Shown: positions 44,219 through 55,804 of the stretch, piece after piece
How positions within the stretch are numbered: position 1 is the stretch's first letter
Layout of the letters: every line of letters starts with the position of its first letter
Source: an uncultured Spiribacter sp.
GTDB taxonomy: Bacteria > Pseudomonadota > Gammaproteobacteria > Nitrococcales > Nitrococcaceae
NCBI GenBank assembly: GCA_937884605.1
Contig: CALGDM010000013.1
Location: 1-64,000, forward strand
Length of the DNA stretch: 64,000 nucleotides
Direction: 5' to 3'
The notes under the pieces: model-generated
The model's input: the letters and a program-made list of their open reading frames with translations, nothing else
Database searches by the model: none
What the model was told of the DNA's origin: nothing
Made by a program: the position numbers and the translations under genes

Positions 44219-44542
44219 ATGGTGGAACGCCCCCCGGTCGATACACTGCGCGAAGGCGTGGTCAGCGCCCTTCGCAGTGTCTATGACCCTGAAATCCCTG
44301 TGGATGTCTACGAGCTGGGCCTGATCTACGAGATTGAAGTGGATGCGGACGGCTTCGTCGACGTGCTGATGACGCTGACTTCGCCCGCCTGCCCGGTGGC
44401 CGGTCAGATGCCGATCATGATCAAGGCCGCGGTGGAACAGGTCCAGGGCGTTGAGGCCGCCGAGGTGGAGCTGACCTGGGATCCGCCGTGGACGCAGGAC
44501 CGGATGTCCGAAAGCGCGCGCCTGCAGCTGGGGTTCATGTAG
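44219..44542 (+). CDS. SufT-like MIP18 (DUF59) family protein
   Basis: LRSVYDPEIPVDVYELGLIYEIEV; MTLTSPACPVAGQMP. Confidence 0.92.
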   Translation: MVERPPVDTLREGVVSALRSVYDPEIPVDVYELGLIYEIEVDADGFVDVLMTLTSPACPVAGQMPIMIKAAVEQVQGVEAAEVELTWDPPWTQDRMSESARLQLGFM

Positions 44543-46184
44543 GCCCGTCGGCCGGCTGAAAAAGGCCTGGATCCACTGGCGGCTCGAGGGTCGATCCCTG
44601 TTCGATGAATGCCGGCCGCTGCCCGGTGGCGGTAAAGCCGTTGTCATAGCGGTACAGATCGGTCAGCAGGATCCGCTCGCCTTCCATACCCGCGACTTCG
44701 GTGATCGCCGTGATCCGTCGTGCCCCATCGCCAAAGCGCGTCAGCTGCACAATGATATCGATGGCCGCTGCGATCTGGTCACGAATCGCCCGCGCCGGCA
44801 GGTCCATTCCCGCCATCAATGTCATCACCTCGAGTCGGGCGAGGGCATCGCGGGGTGTATTGGCGTGGGCCGTGGTCAGGGATCCGTCATGCCCGGTATT
44901 CATCGCCTGGAGCATATCCAGCGCTTCGCCGCCGCGGCATTCCCCCACAAGGATGCGATCGGGGCGCATGCGCAGTGCATTGCGAACCAGTTCGCGAATG
45001 CTGATCGCACCACTGCCCTCAACGTTGGCCGGACGCGACTCCAGGGCCACCACGTGATCCTGCTGCAGACGCAGCTCGGCGGAGTCTTCAATGGTAACGA
45101 TCCGCTCGGACTCGTCGATTTCCTCCGACAGGGCATTCAGGACCGTTGTCTTGCCCGTGCCGGTGCCGCCGGCGATGAGGATATTACGACGGCGATGGAT
45201 GCACAGGCGCAGGAACGCCGCCATGGGGGCATCCAGGGCCCCGAATCCGATCAGATCGCCAAGCCCGATGCGTGTGTCACTGAATCGCCGGATGGTGAGC
45301 GTGGCGCCATTGAGCGCCAGCGGCGGGATGATCGCGTTGACCCGTGAGCCGTCGGGCAGCCGTGCGTCCACGAGCGGCGAGCCTTCATCAAGGCGCCGGC
45401 CGAGGGGCGAGACGATCCGGTCAAGCACGCTATCCAGGGACGCCGCCGAGCTGAATGCCAGTGCGGTCTTCTCCAATCGTCCCTGGCGCTCGACATAGAT
45501 GCTTGACGGGCCGTTGACCATGATTTCGCTGACCGCGGCGTCTTCCATGAGCGACTCGATGGGCCCGAGGCCCACGGTTTCAGCGACCACGGCAGCCACC
45601 ACGGTATTGCCGTCAAGGTCCTCGGGGATCGACAGCTCGCCTTCCTCGATCAGCTGCCAGGCCGTGGTGCGGGCTTCTTCGCGCAGTCGCTGGGGCGATA
45701 GGGTCTGGAGGATATCCCGCCGATACAGATCCAGACGCTGGCTGATGCATTCCTGAAACCGACGTACCAGTTCCGGGGCAATGCGCGGCGTGGCCGCCGG
45801 GATCGGTGGCTCCGCCGGCGCGGCCGGTGCGACAGGTGTGACAGGGTCGGGATCGGGCGCCGAGGGGACGGGCGTCTCGGCCGTGTCGACCGGCCGGACC
45901 TGCCAGCAGGTGTCGCCCAGGCGCAGCGCATCGCCGGCGGCGAGGGGGCCGGCCTGGCGGACCGGCTCGCCGTTGAAGTCGATTTCGCGCCGACCGGTCA
46001 GCAGGCGGATGTGCAGCCCATCGGTGTCCACGCGGAACTCGGCATGGCGCCGGGCGATTCCCTCACCGGCAATCCGCAGATCACAGCGACGCCCGCCACC
46101 AATGGTGTATCGACGCCCCGGATCCAGGGCAATGGGGATCGGGCGCTCATGACCACGGTGCTGGAGGAGTTCGAGCTTATTCAT
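44535..46184 (-). CDS. FHA domain - CpaF/TadA-type secretion ATPase fusion
   Basis: N-terminal FHA pattern (YTIGGGRRCDLRI...ARRHAEF...NGEPV...LAAGDALRLG); C-terminal GGTGTGKTTVLNAL and GECRGGEALDMLQAMNTGHDGSLTTAHANTPRDALARLE. Confidence 0.93.
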   Translation of the reverse strand: MNKLELLQHRGHERPIPIALDPGRRYTIGGGRRCDLRIAGEGIARRHAEFRVDTDGLHIRLLTGRREIDFNGEPVRQAGPLAAGDALRLGDTCWQVRPVDTAETPVPSAPDPDPVTPVAPAAPAEPPIPAATPRIAPELVRRFQECISQRLDLYRRDILQTLSPQRLREEARTTAWQLIEEGELSIPEDLDGNTVVAAVVAETVGLGPIESLMEDAAVSEIMVNGPSSIYVERQGRLEKTALAFSSAASLDSVLDRIVSPLGRRLDEGSPLVDARLPDGSRVNAIIPPLALNGATLTIRRFSDTRIGLGDLIGFGALDAPMAAFLRLCIHRRRNILIAGGTGTGKTTVLNALSEEIDESERIVTIEDSAELRLQQDHVVALESRPANVEGSGAISIRELVRNALRMRPDRILVGECRGGEALDMLQAMNTGHDGSLTTAHANTPRDALARLEVMTLMAGMDLPARAIRDQIAAAIDIIVQLTRFGDGARRITAITEVAGMEGERILLTDLYRYDNGFTATGQRPAFIEQGSTLEPPVDPGLFQPADGPT

Positions 46185-47463
46185 AACGGATCTCCCGAAG
46201 CGGCAAGCGCGGGACGGGGGCTGAGCGGGTCGGATCGGCCCGTTCCGGGGTGGTGGCCGCCGGATCGTCCTGCAGTGTGGGGGTGATGAGCACCACGAGC
46301 TCGGTCTGTTCGTTCTGGAACCGCTCGGAGCGAAAAAGCCGACCGATCACCGGCAGCTCGCCGAGGCCGGGCACCCGACTGACCGCACGGGATTGCTGCT
46401 CGTCGATGAGACCGGCAATCAGCAGCGTCTGCCCGCTCGGTCCGCTCATTTCGGTGATGGCGTTGCGGACCGAAAAGCCGGGTACGCCGAGTACCGTGAC
46501 AGACTCGTCGACATCGCTGACTTCCACCTCGATGCGGGTGCGGATATGGGCATCATCGCCCACCACCGGCGCCACCTTGAGCAGTATCCCGTAGTCCTTG
46601 AAGGTCACCGTCGGGTCGCCCTCGCCGTTCTGTATGGGGATCGGGACTTCACCGCCGGCCTGGAACTCGGCGGCAGTCCCGCTCAGGGCCGAGAGCATGG
46701 GCTCAGCGATCACCCGGGCCTCGCCGGACTGGCCAAGCAGGTCGATCATCGCGGTCAGGCTGAGGCCCACGCCCAGATAGCCATTGCCCTTGCCGATATC
46801 CAGGGGCAACGACTGATTGGGCAGAAAATCACCAAGCGCACCGCGAAAGACATCGTTGGTCTCGAGATCGGCAGCGTAGGCAAAGCTGATCGCGGGGGAC
46901 TGCGTCGTCCAGTCAAGACCGATCTCGCGCAGGGTCGAGGTGCGCAGTTCCACGAACCGGGCCTTGACCTGAACGCTTGGCGTGTCGCGGGCGGTTGCCG
47001 GATCGGTGAAGTCGCCCAGCTCCGGATAGGCTTCCACCAGGCGCTCGAAGCGAGCCTGATCACGATCCGTTGTGGGGTGCCCGGTGACGAAGTACTCGGC
47101 GTTGATGCGCTCGAGACGAATCCCGTCAACACGCCTGGCCAATTGCTCGAGCTGGCGGTCGCGCGGCGTGTCCGCGGAGGGCTGGACCGTAACGGCGAGA
47201 TGCCTGGGGCTGGCGCCTTCGGACCAGATGCGCAGATCGGTCTGCCCGGCGGCCCGGCCCATTAAGAGGATGCCATCGTCGTTGTCGAGCACCTCGACTT
47301 CGGCCAGTTCGCCGTCGCCGAGCGCGACGCGGACCACATTGCTTGCATCGATGATCTGCGAGTGTCCGACATCCACCGTGACGGCGGCGGCGGGCAGCCC
47401 GAGCATCAGCCCAAGCGCCGCGCCCATTGGTTGGTACCAGTGCCCGGTGCGGCGCCCAGTCAT
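46177..47463 (-). CDS. CpaC/RcpA-type pilus secretin
   Basis: Pilus-secretin N domain and secretin C-terminus (EVSDVDESVTVLGVPGFSVRNAITEM...LPVIGRLFRSERFQNEQTELVVLITP). Confidence 0.93.
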   Translation of the reverse strand: MTGRRTGHWYQPMGAALGLMLGLPAAAVTVDVGHSQIIDASNVVRVALGDGELAEVEVLDNDDGILLMGRAAGQTDLRIWSEGASPRHLAVTVQPSADTPRDRQLEQLARRVDGIRLERINAEYFVTGHPTTDRDQARFERLVEAYPELGDFTDPATARDTPSVQVKARFVELRTSTLREIGLDWTTQSPAISFAYAADLETNDVFRGALGDFLPNQSLPLDIGKGNGYLGVGLSLTAMIDLLGQSGEARVIAEPMLSALSGTAAEFQAGGEVPIPIQNGEGDPTVTFKDYGILLKVAPVVGDDAHIRTRIEVEVSDVDESVTVLGVPGFSVRNAITEMSGPSGQTLLIAGLIDEQQSRAVSRVPGLGELPVIGRLFRSERFQNEQTELVVLITPTLQDDPAATTPERADPTRSAPVPRLPLREIRYE

Positions 47464-48242
47464 GGCTCACCCCCGATAATCAGCTCGACCGCGGGTGGCG
47501 TGTCACCGGATGGAGCATGGGTGATTGCCGCGGTGTCGATGCGATAGCCATCCACCGGTGCATTATCCCGGTCAGCGCGCAGGACGACGTGGATGCTGCC
47601 AATGGCAACGGCCTGGGTGATCCGCGCGGCCTCCACCGGTGAGACGGCCAGAGTCAGGTCGTCATAGCCGGGTTGTCGGGTATTGTCCCGCGGGACGGCA
47701 AGTCGCGCGCCGGTGGCGAGGATGGGTATATCCGCCAGCAACGGCAGCGTGGTGCGTTCGCCGTCGTCGCGGTGGGTGAGCAGCAGATCCACACGGTCCC
47801 CGGGACTCAGCAGCCCGGCAATCTCGGCGCCGCCGGACACCGGAATGGTGATGGCCCGGTCGCCGGGCGTGATCTGATCGGCAAGCCGCGCGCGGTCCGA
47901 ATCGGTGACATGCACCGGCAGGATTGCGCGGCCCGCGCTCAGATCGTGGGTCAGGGTCCGCCCCGCGATGCGCGCCCAGGCGCTGTCGGCAAAGGCATGC
48001 TCATGGACAAAACGCACGGGCATCTCACGCACGGCGACGCGATCCGGTGTCAGGCGGCTGCCTTTGGGCAGATCGGCGCCGGCGACGATCACTGCACGGG
48101 TGGCGTGCGTCGAGCGCAGTTCCGCTTCGACAGCCCGGGCGCGTTGCTCGAGATGCCGATCGCCAAACCAGACACCGGCGCCACCGGCCAGCAATGCCCC
48201 GGTGACCAGCAATACACCGCGTTTCAGGGGAGTCATCATCAT
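47460..48242 (-). CDS. CpaB/RcpC-type Flp pilus assembly protein
   Basis: SAF-like domain (AVIVAGADLPKGSRLTPDRVAVREMP; RAITIPVSGGAEIAGLLSPGDRVDLLLTH); SD GGAGAAGG upstream of ATG at 48242; ORF extends to 48278. Confidence 0.87.
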   Translation of the reverse strand: MMMTPLKRGVLLVTGALLAGGAGVWFGDRHLEQRARAVEAELRSTHATRAVIVAGADLPKGSRLTPDRVAVREMPVRFVHEHAFADSAWARIAGRTLTHDLSAGRAILPVHVTDSDRARLADQITPGDRAITIPVSGGAEIAGLLSPGDRVDLLLTHRDDGERTTLPLLADIPILATGARLAVPRDNTRQPGYDDLTLAVSPVEAARITQAVAIGSIHVVLRADRDNAPVDGYRIDTAAITHAPSGDTPPAVELIIGGEP

Positions 48243-48261
48243 CGCCTTCTCCGGGGGCAGT

Positions 48262-48390
48262 TCATAACGGGATGGCAAGGCTCCAAAGCGTCTGGTCGGT
48301 GTGGCTGGCGAAGGCCGTGATCAGCCGATCGATGCCGGACCAGACCCCCATCAGCCCCGCAATCACCGCCAGGTACTCGGCGCTGCTCAT
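48262..48390 (-). CDS. Uncalled 42-aa hydrophobic small ORF in the Tad locus
   Basis: Manual translation MSSAEYLAVIAGLMGVWSGIDRLITAFASHTDQTLWSLAIPL*; start shares an A with the upstream stop (TGATG). Confidence 0.55.
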   Translation of the reverse strand: MSSAEYLAVIAGLMGVWSGIDRLITAFASHTDQTLWSLAIPL

Positions 48391-49148
48391 CACCTGCCCC
48401 CTGGTATGACGCGCTGCGCGAGTAGCAGAGTCCTGCCGGAGTGGCGCAGCAGTTCCGCTTCGAGGGCCTCGCCGTCGCGATGCAGCAGCAGGCGTTGACG
48501 GTCGGCGGTGCTCGGGCGGTCGATAGCCGCGGATTGCCAGCCAGCGGCTTCGAGCGTTTGAGTCAGGGCCCTGGCGGCCGCCGCGAGGGCCAGCGGGGTG
48601 TGGGCGTGGACGGAAGCGCCGGCGGCATTGCGACTCTGGAACTCGATCTCAAACCCGGCCGGCAGGGGCAGATAGGGTTCGGGAGGTGGCGAGTCGGCGG
48701 TATCGAGCGGCATCAGGCTGATCATCACGGCATGCCCCGCGCCAGTGGGCTTGACGGCCAGGCGCCGTGAGAAGCGGTCGCTGGCCTGCCAGAGCGTGTC
48801 GTCGCGTCCGTCACCGTCGGAGTCCTCGGCCTGCAGGACGCCGGGATGAGCCTGCCACTGCCGACTGTAGAGGGTGAGCAGGGCCGCGAGGTCGGCGCCG
48901 CTGCGGTAGGCGAGTGTGCACATCGGCAGTCCGCCGATCATGACGCGTGCATCGCGCAGTACCTCGATGGCATCAGCGGGGGTCCCCAGACTGTCCAGCT
49001 CGTCGCCGCAGGCATTGCGGGCGTTCACCGCCGGCGTCAGCAGCAGGCTGGAAAGCACGCTGACCCAGAGCCAACGGGGTCGCCAGCGCCGGTCAGCGAC
49101 GCCGGGGCAAACGTGCCGAGGGGGGAACGAAATCGGTGGCTTTGGCAT
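48390..49148 (-). CDS. Hypothetical exported protein, Tad locus
   Basis: Signal-like WLWVSVLSSLLLTPAVNA followed by a soluble region; start uncertain (overlaps the upstream gene). Confidence 0.65.
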   Translation of the reverse strand: MPKPPISFPPRHVCPGVADRRWRPRWLWVSVLSSLLLTPAVNARNACGDELDSLGTPADAIEVLRDARVMIGGLPMCTLAYRSGADLAALLTLYSRQWQAHPGVLQAEDSDGDGRDDTLWQASDRFSRRLAVKPTGAGHAVMISLMPLDTADSPPPEPYLPLPAGFEIEFQSRNAAGASVHAHTPLALAAAARALTQTLEAAGWQSAAIDRPSTADRQRLLLHRDGEALEAELLRHSGRTLLLAQRVIPGGR

Positions 49149-49845
49149 CGCGTCCTTCCTTGAAGACAAAAAATCGGCCGAGGATCTGAGCCGGTGTCGA
49201 GAGCGCATCAACGGGTTCACTGGCAACGATCTGCTGCATACGCCGCTCATACTCGGCGTCTGTGGTGGCCTGCCAGGTGCGCGTCGAGAGGCCGCCCGCG
49301 GCAGTCAGTGTCAGCGGCGGACGGTTCTCGCCCGCCTCCAGACGCGGTTGTGCCCGAACGCGGATGCGATCACCGCGCAGACCGCTGCGCTTGAGGTCGA
49401 GCATGGCTTTGGAGAGTCCGACAAAAGACGCAATCGATGGCATTGAGTCGCCATGGGCAAGGCCTCGCACGGCGCGACCGGCTGCCGGCAGGCGGGCGAG
49501 ATCTCCGTCGGGGGGTGTCGACCGCTGCCGGTTGTCGGCGACGCGTAGTGCACCCGTCGGATCCTGCCACAGCGGATTGCGGCTCGGCCCCGCGCGCCTG
49601 AGCTGGTCCACAGCCACCAGAGGCGCGTGGTCATTGCCGAACACGCGATCCTCGATCGCCAGCTGGCGTCTGGCGTCGCTGGTGTTGCCGGCAAGGCTCT
49701 GCCAGGCGGCATAGCGGGCGGCGGCCGTGGTGCTGCGGTCCATGTCGGCAAGCCGCCCCAGATAGTCCATTGCCACAAACGCCGGGATCAGCGCCAGCAG
49801 GCCGACCAGCGACTCGGTGATCGCGCTTCCCGCCTGCCGGTTCAT
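49093..49845 (-). CDS. TadE-like pseudopilin family protein
   Basis: MNRQAGSAITESLVGLLALIPAFVAMDYLGRLADM pilin-like N-terminus; position in locus. Confidence 0.7.
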   Translation of the reverse strand: MNRQAGSAITESLVGLLALIPAFVAMDYLGRLADMDRSTTAAARYAAWQSLAGNTSDARRQLAIEDRVFGNDHAPLVAVDQLRRAGPSRNPLWQDPTGALRVADNRQRSTPPDGDLARLPAAGRAVRGLAHGDSMPSIASFVGLSKAMLDLKRSGLRGDRIRVRAQPRLEAGENRPPLTLTAAGGLSTRTWQATTDAEYERRMQQIVASEPVDALSTPAQILGRFFVFKEGRDAKATDFVPPSARLPRRR

Positions 49846-51068
49846 GGCAGTCCCGGTGCCTCGAGACCGCTCAACGAGGCCTCCCAGTAGGGGTTGAAAA
49901 GCGTGGCGGGGTCCTGCCGGCTGGGGCAGTGCCGACCGCAGTCGTCGGGGACGCGGTAGCGCACCTCGCCGATGCTTATGTGTGCATTGATCGCTTCGCG
50001 GTCGTTTCGTCCGGGCAGCGCGGCGGTCACCAGCGCGGGAATGCGGATCAGGCTTTTGTCCCGCGGCGGCTGACGAAGCCGTGTGTAGCGGGCGACGCCG
50101 ACGTAGTTGCCGGCCAGCCGATCGGCATCGGCATCGCCACGGGCCAGGGTCGACCATGACTCCCAGCTCATTTTGCGCCAGTCGAAAAAGCTGACCTGCA
50201 GACGATCCCCCGAGCGCCAGCCACCGGCATCGGTGCGGGGTGGCTGCTGGGTCACGCCCTGCTTGCGAAAGCGCACGATCCTGAAAAGTGAACGGTCCCA
50301 GTCCCGGGCCCCCCGACCGAAGCGCGGTCCCCCGGACTGGGCGGGCCCCCGAAGCCAGCGGCTCAAGCGTCGGTCGTGATTGATGGTGGATCGCAGTACC
50401 CGCTGAAAGTAGCCACCGTCCCGTCCCGGCGTGACGCCCTCGAGTTTGAAGAATGCCGAGACCTGTCGGCTGAGCAGGCGCGCTTCCATCGCGGTGGCAT
50501 AGGGGTCGGGCATGGCCTCGATGGCGCGGCGCTCGTTGACCTTGAAATCGTCTCCGTAGCGCAGCGCGACACGTTGCATGACTGCGTCAACCCGCGCCGG
50601 CCGCAGCGCATTGCGCGCGCCGTACTGAGCCAGTGAAAGTAGATCCATGTAGCGGTCGGCGCTGACGATGTAACCGCGGGCGGCCGTTGATGCGGTCTTG
50701 ATCGCGGCATCGACGAGTCGTTGGGCCTCGCGGGTGGCCACACCGACGTAGGGCAGAAACTGAGCGTAACGGGCGATCTGGCGGGCCGCCTCGCCGGTGT
50801 AGCGCAACCAGCTGATGGTGGCCACCAGATGACCGACGGCGATATGGCTCGCGATCAGGCTGCGATTGGTATAAGCGATCAGATTGAGTCGTCGAGCGGT
50901 CCAGCTGGCACCGCTGTAGGCAGCGGCATCGGCGGCATTGACCACCGCCGATTCCTGCCCGATGCCGCGGATCGACCGGTGCGTGAGCACGATCGCCGCG
51001 GCGGCCAGCGCCAGAGTGGCCAGAACCACCGGCAGGATCTGGCCGCATTGCCGATCAGTTCTGCTCAT
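49842..51068 (-). CDS. TadG-like pilus assembly protein
   Basis: GQILPVVLATLALAAAAIVLTHRS...VVNAADAAAYSGASWTARRLN. Confidence 0.75.
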   Translation of the reverse strand: MSRTDRQCGQILPVVLATLALAAAAIVLTHRSIRGIGQESAVVNAADAAAYSGASWTARRLNLIAYTNRSLIASHIAVGHLVATISWLRYTGEAARQIARYAQFLPYVGVATREAQRLVDAAIKTASTAARGYIVSADRYMDLLSLAQYGARNALRPARVDAVMQRVALRYGDDFKVNERRAIEAMPDPYATAMEARLLSRQVSAFFKLEGVTPGRDGGYFQRVLRSTINHDRRLSRWLRGPAQSGGPRFGRGARDWDRSLFRIVRFRKQGVTQQPPRTDAGGWRSGDRLQVSFFDWRKMSWESWSTLARGDADADRLAGNYVGVARYTRLRQPPRDKSLIRIPALVTAALPGRNDREAINAHISIGEVRYRVPDDCGRHCPSRQDPATLFNPYWEASLSGLEAPGLP

Positions 51069-51348
51069 TGAAATTCTGCAGCGTGTCTTCCTGGCCGGCC
51101 CGATCTGCGGCGCGTTGCGAATTGTTGTCGGCCTGATCGACCTGGTCACTGCCGTCCTGACCGGCCATTTCCCGGGCCATGGCGGCGGCCTGGCTGGAAA
51201 TGGTGTCGCCGAATGCCGAGAAAATGCCGATACCGGCCACGGCGATGAGCGCGGTGATGATGATGTACTCCGACATCCCCTGACCGCGTTGGCGGTGAGT
51301 GGGGCGGGTGAGATGCGGGGCTTTCGGATGCGGGCGTTGGATGAGCAT
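51055..51348 (-). CDS. Flp-like type IVb pilin with extended hydrophilic tail
   Basis: RG|QGMSEYIIITALIAVAGIGIFSAF fits G-x4-E-Y prepilin motif; SD AAGGAGG before ATG. Confidence 0.8.
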   Translation of the reverse strand: MLIQRPHPKAPHLTRPTHRQRGQGMSEYIIITALIAVAGIGIFSAFGDTISSQAAAMAREMAGQDGSDQVDQADNNSQRAADRAGQEDTLQNFNEQN

Positions 51349-51403: not shown

Positions 51404-53239
51404 TCAGTCATGCCGCGAAGTACCGCCGGTCGGGGGGAGTCGCTGGGCGGCCGAGCGGCAGCGTTGCGGGCGTCGAACGGTGGCAAGCCAGTGGATCCCG
51501 GGTGCATCCACAGCGACGCGGGCGTCGCCCGCGTCGCTGCCAGGGAAGGCGAGGGGTGGCTCACCCGGCAACCACCGGATCGCGCGAAGGCCCTGGGCGG
51601 TGCGCTGCAAACCATAGGCCGGCGGCTGCATGGCGCTTACCGGCCCGTCCATTGCCATTAGCCCGGTCTGCTCGCAGAGCCAGACCAGCGCCTCGTCGCG
51701 GCCTGCCGGGACGGCATTGGCACCGTAGGCCAGACCGTAGGCCTCGCTGAGCCGGGCAATGGCCACACGGTGTGGGGCATCCCGCTCGAGTGCTCTGTCG
51801 AAGGCAGGATCGGGCGGCGTTGACTCAGGCCTCGGCGACGGGGCGTTGAGTCCGACGATGAGGGCGCCGGTGGCCAGCGCGATCACAATTGCGCTGGCAG
51901 CGGAGTGACCGGTGGCCGGTTGCACCCGCCGGCGCCCGAGTGTGATCAGTGCCAGCCAACCGCCACCAAGACCCGCGGTGATCAGCCCCGGGGCTGCCTC
52001 GCTGGCTGCTGGCCGGACCGGCAGAGGCAGCGTGACCACCGCTTGAACGCCCGCCGGCGCAAGGCGGCGTTGGCGGCCGTCCGGATGCAACAAAACGCTG
52101 GGTCCGCCGTGGGCAACGACCAGGACGGGGATGCCGGCGCGCGCGGCCTGTAGATGCACGCTGCGCCGATGCAGCCCTGGGAGCCTTCCGGATCGCCACG
52201 CCGGCAGACGGGCGGGATTGACGATCAGTCGCGGGTCATGGACCGCAGCCCGGTCGACGGCCCGGGGGTGCGCAGCGTCCGAGCAGATCAGCACCTCGAG
52301 GGCTGCCAGCCCGTTTTCGCCGGGCTTGGCGCCGGCGCTGAGGGCGGATTCGGCGTACGGCAGGGGAAAGACCTTGGTCCAGCCCCCGCGCGCGTCGCTG
52401 CTCGCCTCCTTGCCGGGTCTGATCGGGACCTCACTGCGAAGCCGCCCGGGTGCGTGATAGCGGTAGCCATGCCGTAGGTGGATCATGCCGCCGGGCGGTC
52501 TTTGCCAGGGCGGAGGCAGCAGGACGGGGGAGGCCGCTTCGGGCCAGACCACCCAGCGTGCCTCCACATCGGCAAGCGCGGCATGGGCGAGCAGGGTCGA
52601 TGTGGCGGCGCGTCGGTCAAGGGTCTGGACAACGGCAAGGCGCGGCGAGTCGGGCAGCGCTTTCGGCAGCGGGTTGGAAGCGATGAGCGAAAGCGGCACC
52701 ACACTCAGCGCAATTCCCAGCGGCGCGATCCAGTCGCGATGCCGGAACGGGCGTGTTGCCGCCATCAATGCAACAGCGAGCCCCGTCTGCCACAAGCCAA
52801 TGGCGCCATCCGCGGCGATGACGCCGGCGCCGTCGATCAGGCCGAACGGCACAACGGATGGCGGGACGAAAAGACTCAGCGAGGCGGGAATTCCCATGCT
52901 TCGCAGCCCCGCAAGCAGGCCGACCAACCCGATCATCGTGCCCGCGAGCCGTCTCGAACCGGTGCCGCCATGGCGATCCGCGGCGAGCCAGGCCGCCAGA
53001 CCGAACACGCCGAGAACGGCCAGGATCACCAGCATCGCGAGGGCGGGTTCGCGGCCTGCAACGGGGCCCAAAGCCACCCCCAATGGCAGTCCCAGGGCAA
53101 TCAGCGTATTGATCAATCGCGCGCGCTGCGGCTGGCGCATGCCCATCAGCCAGGGGACAAGCCAGAGTCCGCCGGCGGCTGCGAATCCCGCCGGTGGCAG
53201 TGCGGCCACTGCGAGCAGCCCGGCGAGCAGTCCGGTCAT
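51404..53239 (-). CDS. Apolipoprotein N-acyltransferase (Lnt)-like membrane nitrilase with extra C-terminal domain
   Basis: Multi-TM N-terminus; WPEAA (Glu), TKVFPLPYAE (Lys, Glu), LEVLICSD (Cys); LQAARAGIPVLVVAHGGPSVLLHPDGR; ~140 aa C-terminal extension. Confidence 0.82.
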   Translation of the reverse strand: MTGLLAGLLAVAALPPAGFAAAGGLWLVPWLMGMRQPQRARLINTLIALGLPLGVALGPVAGREPALAMLVILAVLGVFGLAAWLAADRHGGTGSRRLAGTMIGLVGLLAGLRSMGIPASLSLFVPPSVVPFGLIDGAGVIAADGAIGLWQTGLAVALMAATRPFRHRDWIAPLGIALSVVPLSLIASNPLPKALPDSPRLAVVQTLDRRAATSTLLAHAALADVEARWVVWPEAASPVLLPPPWQRPPGGMIHLRHGYRYHAPGRLRSEVPIRPGKEASSDARGGWTKVFPLPYAESALSAGAKPGENGLAALEVLICSDAAHPRAVDRAAVHDPRLIVNPARLPAWRSGRLPGLHRRSVHLQAARAGIPVLVVAHGGPSVLLHPDGRQRRLAPAGVQAVVTLPLPVRPAASEAAPGLITAGLGGGWLALITLGRRRVQPATGHSAASAIVIALATGALIVGLNAPSPRPESTPPDPAFDRALERDAPHRVAIARLSEAYGLAYGANAVPAGRDEALVWLCEQTGLMAMDGPVSAMQPPAYGLQRTAQGLRAIRWLPGEPPLAFPGSDAGDARVAVDAPGIHWLATVRRPQRCRSAAQRLPPTGGTSRHD

Positions 53240-53246
53240 TATCGAC

Positions 53247-53702
53247 TCATTCCCGGGGTGGCGATGCCTTGCCAAGCGCGTCAATTGCCCGGCGCAGATC
53301 AACCAGTCCCGGCTGGCCGGCGCTGACGGGGGCCAGTCGCTCGTGCTGATCGAGCAGAAGGCGGGCTTGCTGGAGGTGGACGATGGCCAGGTTGTAGGTG
53401 GCAAGGACATGACCCGGGTCACGGGCGAGGGCGGCCTCAAAGTGCTCGATGGCCGCGTTGGGATCGGCCGCGCCGTAGGCGATCAATCCAAGCTGGAAAT
53501 AGGGTGATACGAGCTCCGGGGACTGCTCGATGACCGACTCGTAGCCACGCCGTGCCCGCTCGAGATCGCCGCGCTCAAGGGCGGTATCGGCCCGGGCGAG
53601 GCGCTCGATGACCGATGGCGCATTATGGGTCGGCATGGCCACACAGCCTTGAAGCATGGCGGCGAGTGCCACCAGTCGGACCGAAGCCGTAAAGCGACTC
53701 AT
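53247..53702 (-). CDS. TPR lipoprotein (TadD-like)
   Basis: Signal peptide with lipobox LQGC; TPR-like repeats (GDLERARRGYESVIEQSPELVSPYFQLGLIAYGAADPNAAIEHFEAALARDPGHVLATYNLAIVH). Confidence 0.83.
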   Translation of the reverse strand: MSRFTASVRLVALAAMLQGCVAMPTHNAPSVIERLARADTALERGDLERARRGYESVIEQSPELVSPYFQLGLIAYGAADPNAAIEHFEAALARDPGHVLATYNLAIVHLQQARLLLDQHERLAPVSAGQPGLVDLRRAIDALGKASPPRE

Positions 53703-54073
53703 GGGTAATCCTTGTTGCAGTAGAAACGCTGGCCGATCAGGTTGGGCGGCAGCGATTGCGCGGCCATCTCGAGGGTGGCACGGGTGCCTCTGGGGGCCGG
53801 TACCCAGCGCCCCGGTGGCACCCGCGAAGACACCTTCAATACGGTAAGCTCGCGATCGAGCTGGACAACATCGATGGCAAAGCGCATGCCAAGGGTGTGC
53901 ACGCCGCCCCGTGCGATCAGCAGCAGGCCGCCGTCGGTGACGGGCGGATGCGATCGCCCCAGCAGGCCGATCAGGCGCGACATGAACCGGTCGGCGACAT
54001 CGACACGAATGCGCAGCGGACCGCCCGGTTCAGGCATGAAAAGGCAGGTGGGCACGGTGCCGCCGCGGCTCAT
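53699..54073 (-). CDS. DUF192 family protein
   Basis: VADRFMSRLIGLLGRS...GGLLLIARGGVHTLGMRFAIDVVQLD. Confidence 0.87.
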   Translation of the reverse strand: MSRGGTVPTCLFMPEPGGPLRIRVDVADRFMSRLIGLLGRSHPPVTDGGLLLIARGGVHTLGMRFAIDVVQLDRELTVLKVSSRVPPGRWVPAPRGTRATLEMAAQSLPPNLIGQRFYCNKDYP

Positions 54074-54963
54074 AACAGACCGCCGTCCATGAACTGCAGC
54101 ACGATCGGGAAACCGATGATCAGAAACGTCACCGGGAAGAGCAGCCCCACCAGAGGGGCGAGCATTTTGACCGGCGCTTCGTTGGCCTTTTTCTCGGCGG
54201 CGGCAAATCGCTCGCGCCGGCGCTGCGCGGCCTGATCACTGAGCGTCTGGCTGATCGCAGCGCCGGTTTCCTCAGCCTGGGCGATGGCTGCCACAAACCC
54301 ATGCACCGCGCTCAGGTCCACCCGTCGGGCCATGCGCTCGAGCGCCTCGAGGCGTGGGACACCGGTGCGTGTGTCGCGGTCGATGCGCTGCATTTCCGCT
54401 CGCAGCGGCCCCGGTTCAAGGTGTTGGGTGCATTGTGGCAGTGCCGCACTGAAACTCAGTCCGGCCCGCACCGAAAGCCCCAACAGCTCGAGCAGGGCAG
54501 GGAACTGCCGGGCGATCAGGCGCTGCCGACGCTGCCCATGATCGCGAAGCCAGATCGCCGGATACGCGTAGCCCAGCAGCAAACCGGCGAGCACCGCCCT
54601 TGCTCCGCCCGCGTCGACCGAACTGAGCACAGGCTGCAGAACGACCGCGGCGAATGCGGCGAGCAGGGCCGTGAGACCCCGCAGCACCATCCACTCGCCC
54701 GGCAGCACCGCATAACCCATGCCGGCGCGATCGAGCCGGGCCGCCAGGTCCCGGGGCGAGAACCACTGCGCCGGATCCACTTCGGCGTGAATCAGTCGGG
54801 CCAGCGGCAGCAGCAGCCGAAACAGCCGGGGTGAGGGATCACGCCAGCGATCAACCCGCGGCCCGCGGCGCACCCGGGCGAGCTCGGCGATGCCGACCGC
54901 GCCGCTTGCCGCGGTGAGTCCCAGCAGGCTGACCGACCAGAGCGCGCCTGCTTCAGACATCAA
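54070..54963 (-). CDS. TadC-like type II secretion F family protein
   Basis: T2SSF-like core (LLELLGLSVRAGLSFSAAL...RRRERFAAAEKKANEAPVKMLAPLVGLLFPVTFLIIGFPIV). Confidence 0.9.
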   Translation of the reverse strand: MMSEAGALWSVSLLGLTAASGAVGIAELARVRRGPRVDRWRDPSPRLFRLLLPLARLIHAEVDPAQWFSPRDLAARLDRAGMGYAVLPGEWMVLRGLTALLAAFAAVVLQPVLSSVDAGGARAVLAGLLLGYAYPAIWLRDHGQRRQRLIARQFPALLELLGLSVRAGLSFSAALPQCTQHLEPGPLRAEMQRIDRDTRTGVPRLEALERMARRVDLSAVHGFVAAIAQAEETGAAISQTLSDQAAQRRRERFAAAEKKANEAPVKMLAPLVGLLFPVTFLIIGFPIVLQFMDGGLL

Positions 54964-55804
54964 TGGCGACCACCCGGCGGATCCAGACCACCGCCAGCGA
55001 CATGGCCACCGCCACGATGGCGATCACCGCCCAGCCAAGGGGCTCGGTGAACAGTCGCGCCATCATTGCGGGCTGCTGGAGGTAGAGCATGCCACCAATG
55101 CCGAAGGGCAGTACCATCATCACTCGCCCCTGCATCCGCCCCATGGCGGTCAGTGCCGTGATGCGCTCTTCAACCTGAGCGCGCTCGCGCAGCGTTTCAG
55201 CCAGCGTATCGAGGGTATGCGCCAGATCGCCGCCCACCCGGTGCGAGATCATGATCGCGTTGCGGAAAAGCGCTGTTTCCTCGGACGGCACGCGCCCGGC
55301 AAATCCGCCGAGCACGGTCTCGAGTTCTTCGCCCAGGCGCTGGCGGCTTAGCATCAGGCCGAACTCCTGGCTGAGTGGCGCCGGTTGTCGGCGCGAGACA
55401 AGCTCCATGGCGCGACCGATGTTGGTGCCGGCACGAAGCGAGCTGGCCAGGGTCTGCAGGGCATCGGGCAGTTGGCGGATAATGGCCTTGCGGCGGCGCT
55501 CGCGGATGGTGCGAACGCCAATCCGCGGCAGCGCCAGCCCGGTCAACCCGGCGGCCGCAGCCAATGGCCAGGGCAGCAGTAATCCGGTGATAGCGGCCAG
55601 TACCAGTCCCAGCCCCAGGGCGATCTGCAGGAGCCGTCGCGCGGGCAGATCGATGAACTGCGCGCGCAGGTCATCCTGCGCGGTGGTCCGGATATGCGAT
55701 CGATAGCGCTGGATGGCGGGGCCAAGGCCGCCCACCACTGCCACAAAGGCAAGGCTCGCGGCCAGACAGAGTCCGATGAGAGCAGGCAGCGCGGAAGACA
55801 TCAT
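54953..55804 (-). CDS. TadB-like type II secretion F family protein
   Basis: T2SSF-like core (LPDALQTLASSLRAGTNIGRAMELV...LRERAQVEERITALTAMGRMQGRVMMVLPFGIG). Confidence 0.9.
   Translation of the reverse strand: MMSSALPALIGLCLAASLAFVAVVGGLGPAIQRYRSHIRTTAQDDLRAQFIDLPARRLLQIALGLGLVLAAITGLLLPWPLAAAAGLTGLALPRIGVRTIRERRRKAIIRQLPDALQTLASSLRAGTNIGRAMELVSRRQPAPLSQEFGLMLSRQRLGEELETVLGGFAGRVPSEETALFRNAIMISHRVGGDLAHTLDTLAETLRERAQVEERITALTAMGRMQGRVMMVLPFGIGGMLYLQQPAMMARLFTEPLGWAVIAIVAVAMSLAVVWIRRVVAIDV

Follow-up and report, generated by a model that had tools for sequence, protein, structure and literature searches.

The Tad operon and its additional gene

The window, i.e., the whole stretch of 64,000 nucleotides that was analysed, contains a Tad/Flp pilus operon in which tadB, tadC, tadD, flp, tadG, tadE, cpaB, cpaC, and tadA are all present, each of the genes listed here being encoded on the minus strand. 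In the order of reading, the operon includes genes for TadB-like (T2SSF; 54953..55804) and TadC-like (T2SSF; 54070..54963) proteins, a DUF192 protein (PF02643; 53699..54073), and a TPR lipoprotein with the lipobox LQGC, which is a candidate TadD-like pilotin assigned on the basis of Pfam/NCBIfam matches and synteny (53247..53702; MSRFTASVRLVALAAMLQGC). Beyond the gene that is the subject of this analysis, there follow a Flp-type prepilin recognized from its sequence, G/QGMSEYIII (51055..51348; RGQGMSEYIIITALIAVAGIG), a TadG-like membrane-anchored protein (49842..51149; GQILPVVLA... and synteny), and a TadE-like pseudopilin, the real start of which is probably internal to the frame (49093..50157; GSAITESLVGL... 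and synteny). The remaining genes encode a fast-evolving predicted secreted protein (48390..49250), CpaB/RcpC (47460..48278; TIGR03177, E 4e-45), the secretin CpaC/RcpA (46177..47463), and a TadA/CpaF ATPase with an N-terminal FHA domain (44535..46184; TIGR03819, PF00498). The TadD of Pseudomonas aeruginosa is a TPR lipoprotein that serves the secretin RcpA as its pilotin (PMC10499894).

The additional gene (51404..53239, minus strand) is read from 53239 to 51404 as 611 codons and a stop, and the plus strand of the same interval has no open frame. Its product, a 611-aa Lnt-like membrane protein of the nitrilase superfamily with a C-terminal C39-like domain, is named LNT39 here. The gene lies just upstream of flp and 7 bp downstream of the TadD-like gene, which ends at 53247, so that the spacing of 8 bp given in the earlier note has to be corrected; the lipobox that it had recognized in the neighbour is present. 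The same order, gshA-tadB-tadC-DUF192-tadD-LNT39-flp-tadG-tadE-secreted protein-cpaB-cpaC-FHA-tadA, is common to 10 complete operons, except that gshA falls off the contig in one of them and the secreted protein was undetected by tblastn in another. Compared with a typical Tad operon, the locus carries the DUF192 gene, the LNT39 gene, and the FHA-tadA, and neither tadZ nor a dedicated tadV was seen within the cluster.

The protein begins with a multi-TM region (residues 1-195; 52655..53239), supported by hydropathy and by the helices of a low-confidence model, which is followed by a nitrilase (C-N hydrolase) domain delimited by alignment and profiles (residues 196-411; 52007..52654), in which the motifs WPEAA (E234), WTKVFPLPYAE (K289 and E297), and VLICSD (C319) are found as had been proposed. 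Two predicted TM helices and a linker then extend to about residue 468 (51836..52006; model and hydropathy), although the proposal of two TM segments at this point stands only in part, given that the low-confidence model has helices at 416-435 and 444-464 and only the second is above the hydropathy cut-off. The chain ends in a predicted C39/papain-like domain devoid of the catalytic Cys and His (residues 478-611; 51404..51808), delimited with AlphaFold, Foldseek, and profile comparison. Hydropathy and the low-confidence model suggest approximately seven TM helices before the nitrilase domain and approximately two after it, the arrangement in Lnt being seven before and one after.

Relationship to apolipoprotein N-acyltransferase

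Membership in the Lnt family, which had been proposed on the motifs, is extended by profile matches. The NCBIfam lnt profile (TIGR00546) matches LNT39 of the window over residues 312-389 (E 1.3e-4, 21.3 bits) and all of the 10 aligned orthologues, the best of them at 5.4e-21. Pfam gave nothing above the cut-off for the window protein, CN_hydrolase included, and matched CN_hydrolase in eight of the 10 orthologues. A PDB sequence search with the window protein alone gave no match; with a profile built from the nitrilase part, Lnt structures headed the matches (5n6m, E 4.7e-7), and amidases and NAD synthetase were matched as well. Lnt also ranks top in Foldseek with the full-length model, which is of low confidence (pLDDT 43, from a three-sequence alignment). 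It is confirmed, then, that LNT39 is an Lnt-family protein inside a Tad operon.

The existence of this relationship would also be consistent with LNT39 being simply the housekeeping lnt of the organism. This explanation is scarcely credible, given that the genome has, on a different contig, a full lnt (489 aa) adjoining a corC-like gene, and that in every one of the 14 genomes of the genus a single lnt match scores 312-335 bits, above the equivalog cut-off of NCBIfam (132.9 bits), whereas the copies of LNT39 reach at most 46 bits and remain below it. As a separate full-scoring lnt is present in 14 of 14 genomes, LNT39 is not the housekeeping gene, and the second lnt for which the earlier note had advised a search does exist.

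The catalytic side of the enzyme is well conserved, as E234, K289, E297, and C319 are unchanged in all 10 aligned sequences, at identities of 28-69%, and E297 is, in the alignment, the counterpart of the essential E343 of Lnt. The multi-TM N-terminus, the nitrilase domain, the E-K-C triad, and the E343 equivalent are, therefore, common to LNT39 and to Lnt (TIGR00546; E. coli and P. aeruginosa structures 5n6h and 5n6m). The acceptor side, on the other hand, departs from Lnt in several respects when LNT39 is aligned with the Lnt of its own genome and with the Lnt of the PDB. Approximately 23 residues directly after E297 are absent from the family (alignment with the genome's own Lnt), a deletion that falls in the place of the mobile 345-365 arm of the E. 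coli enzyme; W237 has no conserved counterpart, Tyr mostly takes the place of W415, and the active-site sequence C-Y-E is replaced by C-S-D. The E. coli enzyme requires W237 in its second step alone, in which the lipoprotein is acylated, and a role in framing the acceptor window has been proposed for W237, E343, P346, and W415 (PMC6971011). By alignment, the acyl-enzyme half of LNT39 looks kept and its acceptor half altered, and the remodelling of this side relative to Lnt implies that the acceptor is probably other than the usual diacylglyceryl-cysteine. Further differences from Lnt are a second TM helix predicted to follow the nitrilase domain, the added C39-like domain, and the location in a Tad operon of a genome that also has a normal lnt.

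Another divergent branch of Lnt was encountered in two genera of the order besides this one (L031, 7540-9459, plus strand; L032, 12089-13768, minus strand), with proteins of about 550 aa that are 47% identical to each other and 28% identical to Lnt. These proteins, from genomes G039 and G027, were rejected as relatives of LNT39, being a separate Lnt branch with neither the C39-like domain nor Tad neighbours.

The C-terminal domain

The extra C-terminal domain that the earlier note had seen as unexpected in an Lnt is conserved in the genus, is under selection, and is predicted to fold. It comprises approximately 120 residues, in which W520, L521, C522, P540, G543, W584, L585, and C594 are unchanged in the alignment of the genus, and it is the best-predicted part of the full-length model (pLDDT of about 60-75). 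When the domain of the orthologue L033 was folded alone (AlphaFold, three-sequence alignment), a pLDDT of 87 and a pTM of 0.81 were obtained. In a Foldseek search of the PDB with this domain, papain-like enzymes made up the majority of the best matches, with a few unrelated proteins among them, and the E-values, at 0.05-0.6, were individually weak. The matches include the C39 domain of PCAT1 (8vpb, probability 0.93, TM 0.53; 6mpz, 0.77), ComA, the foot-and-mouth virus leader protease, and NlpC/P60 domains.

Profile comparison with a reference set of 24 C39 domains from the class gave one co-linear alignment of 85 columns with a score of 21.7, a score that none of 400 column shuffles equalled, none of them reaching 80 aligned columns either, and no single C39 subfamily stood out. 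At the level of ordinary sequence searches, Pfam PF03412 gave no match to LNT39 in its own genome (E 0.001) or in any of the 10 members, and a PDB search with the C-terminal profile returned chance matches only. In the profile alignment, the column of the catalytic Cys of C39 is occupied by G, P, S, or N in the 10 members of the family, and that of the His by T, Q, G, D, or other residues. The structure prediction and fold search thus point to a C39/papain-like fold, rather than to a disordered or unrelated region, and the tentative C39-like assignment of the earlier note holds for the fold; the motifs on which it rested, WLCEQTG (with C522) and GIHWLATV, are present and are not the active site. 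Since neither catalytic residue, Cys or His, survives at its position in any of the copies, no peptidase activity is to be expected of the domain, and an active C39 peptidase is ruled out by these absent residues.

The domain is comparable, in its predicted fold and in the order of its elements, to the C39 domains of PCAT1 and ComA and to the inactive C39-like domains (CLDs) of the RTX exporters, which are also devoid of the catalytic Cys. It differs from these exporter domains in that it is not N-terminal to an ABC transporter and is probably periplasmic rather than cytoplasmic, and from C39 in that it is below detection by Pfam and has its two invariant Cys elsewhere (C522 and C594). The periplasmic location is deduced from the topology. 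The nitrilase domain of Lnt is periplasmic, as established for E. coli, and the two predicted TM helices after this domain would return the chain of LNT39 to the periplasm. In the closest orthologue (L020, 8504-10117, minus strand, 538 aa), both predicted inter-domain TM helices, together with approximately 15 residues of the C39-like domain, have been lost and both domains are kept, which is most simply explained by a periplasmic C-terminal domain; as an even number of helices is missing, this domain would stay on the periplasmic side, with the nitrilase domain. In a domain located in the periplasm, C522 and C594 could form a pair.

The neighbouring TPR lipoprotein has its top NCBIfam match (E 1.3e-8) in the C39 peptidase lipoprotein of the PA2778 type, of which it resembles the TPR half. 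This is a curious match beside a gene with a C39-like domain, although the similarity may be one that is generic to TPR proteins.

Distribution, loss, and selection

Of the 14 genomes of the genus, which are small (1.2-2.2 Mb), 11 gave matches to the C-terminal profile, as against none among the 40 others of the order that were searched. A search of 369 genomes of the class gave four marginal matches, all to unrelated proteins, and a search of plasmids gave none, while a scan of contigs returned two loci, both labelled as uncultured Ectothiorhodospiraceae. In the genomes searched, then, the domain was not found outside the genus.

In three genomes of the genus (G012, G004, and G008), the same operon has tadD followed directly by flp, with no copy of LNT39 elsewhere in the genome, so that the gene is dispensable. 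These genomes fall on at least two branches among the carriers, in trees that are weakly supported in places, which makes loss likelier than recent gain. In all three, TadD retains its lipobox and Flp its GQGMSEY start; no shift in the TadD or Flp sequences was seen with the absence of LNT39, nor were any genes of the operon seen to co-vary with its presence or absence.

Where it is present, LNT39 is under purifying selection, with a dN/dS of 0.27-0.34 in three close pairs. In the comparison of the window with L020, four Tad neighbours have values of 0.08-0.14 and the secreted protein 0.29. Constraint on the C-terminal domain (0.23) is no weaker than on the remainder of the protein.

Possible function and alternative explanations

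The preferred explanation, to which roughly an even chance is given, is that LNT39 is an Lnt paralogue dedicated to the Tad operon, which would acylate a Tad substrate in the manner of AatD and employ its dead C39-like domain as a binding module. In the parts of the published account considered here, AatD is described as an Lnt homologue with the same catalytic residues that attaches palmitate to CexE at its N-terminal glycine, the secretion of this protein being dependent on AatD (PMC7943197). As described there, AatD is, like LNT39, tied to one secretion system beside a housekeeping Lnt, and it keeps the catalytic residues and the E343 equivalent, a likeness drawn from description (PMC7943197). 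The two differ in that the Aat genes are absent here, the operon being a Tad operon, and in that those same parts of the account mention no C39-like domain for AatD (PMC7943197).

Under this mechanism, LNT39, a membrane-embedded enzyme of nitrilase fold with an intact Glu-Lys-Cys site, would load its Cys319 with an acyl group drawn from a membrane lipid and, in the periplasm, would transfer this group to an amine on a protein of the Tad pathway; there, the dead C39-like domain would bind the substrate or a pilus component. Inactive C39-like domains of HlyB-type exporters bind substrates, and, by analogy, the domain of LNT39 might bind the N-terminal segment of its own. A narrower version, in which the remodelled Lnt acylates a non-lipoprotein component of the Tad system and the fused periplasmic domain reads the N-terminus of this substrate, is possible, if doubtful. 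The candidate substrates that are left are TadG, TadE, and the fast-evolving secreted protein, which has no family match and is itself a candidate tip or substrate protein in the gap between tadE and cpaB. The Flp pilin is a less likely acceptor. A single A24 prepilin peptidase was found in the genome, which is 91% complete; it is encoded far from the Tad operon (L148, contig C12 of G000) and carries a PilD-type N-terminal region (CPxC...DNIPVISW...CRDC), from which it follows that the amine of Flp is presumably methylated.

The earlier note had favoured the acylation of the adjacent TadD, i.e., a second N-acyltransferase that would perform the Lnt reaction on a single substrate. This accords with the invariable order of the two genes, 7 bp apart, with the fact that TadD is a lipoprotein in every genome, and with the retention of the catalytic residues, but every genome also has a housekeeping Lnt, and the lipobox of TadD persists in the three genomes that have no LNT39, so that the maintenance of TadD as a lipoprotein is independent of the enzyme. 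Furthermore, the features of Lnt proposed to admit the apolipoprotein (PMC6971011) are either not conserved in LNT39, as for W237 and W415, or deleted, as for the 345-365 arm, and CYE has become CSD. A dedicated acylation of TadD has thus lost much of its appeal and is considered unlikely.

Two further explanations dispense with acyl transfer from a lipid. LNT39 may be an amidase or hydrolase of the nitrilase superfamily acting on a periplasmic component of the pilus, given that the superfamily performs many C-N reactions, that the nitrilase profile also matches amidases and NAD synthetase, and that the acceptor side is unlike that of Lnt; this is rather improbable, however, as the nearest family by profile is Lnt, with which the protein shares the multi-TM N-terminus and the equivalent of E343. 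Alternatively, the nitrilase fold may be only structural, in a catalytically idle and fast-evolving accessory membrane scaffold that is heading for loss. The gene has probably been lost at least twice in the genus, its dN/dS is three times that of most Tad neighbours, and L020 is devoid of both linker helices and of some of the C-terminal domain, all of which such a scaffold would explain, but the four catalytic positions are invariant even though the identity to the window protein drops to 28%, and the dN/dS is still about 0.3, which makes an idle scaffold decidedly improbable.

If the preferred explanation, that of a Tad-dedicated acyltransferase, is correct, acylation by Lnt-type enzymes would serve surface machines more generally than is apparent from lipoprotein maturation and from Aat as the single example, and Tad pili would have a lipid modification for which no one has yet searched. 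The three natural operons without LNT39 within the genus make the question accessible to testing by comparison. Literature text searches combining the Tad pilus with apolipoprotein N-acyltransferase, or Spiribacter with Tad, returned nothing relevant, which is not proof of novelty.

Finally, two other genes of the operon deserve a comment. The DUF192 gene overlaps its neighbours and is kept in all the examined loci of the genus that reach that far, and the FHA domain (PF00498) on TadA/CpaF suggests a phosphothreonine control of the pilus motor.
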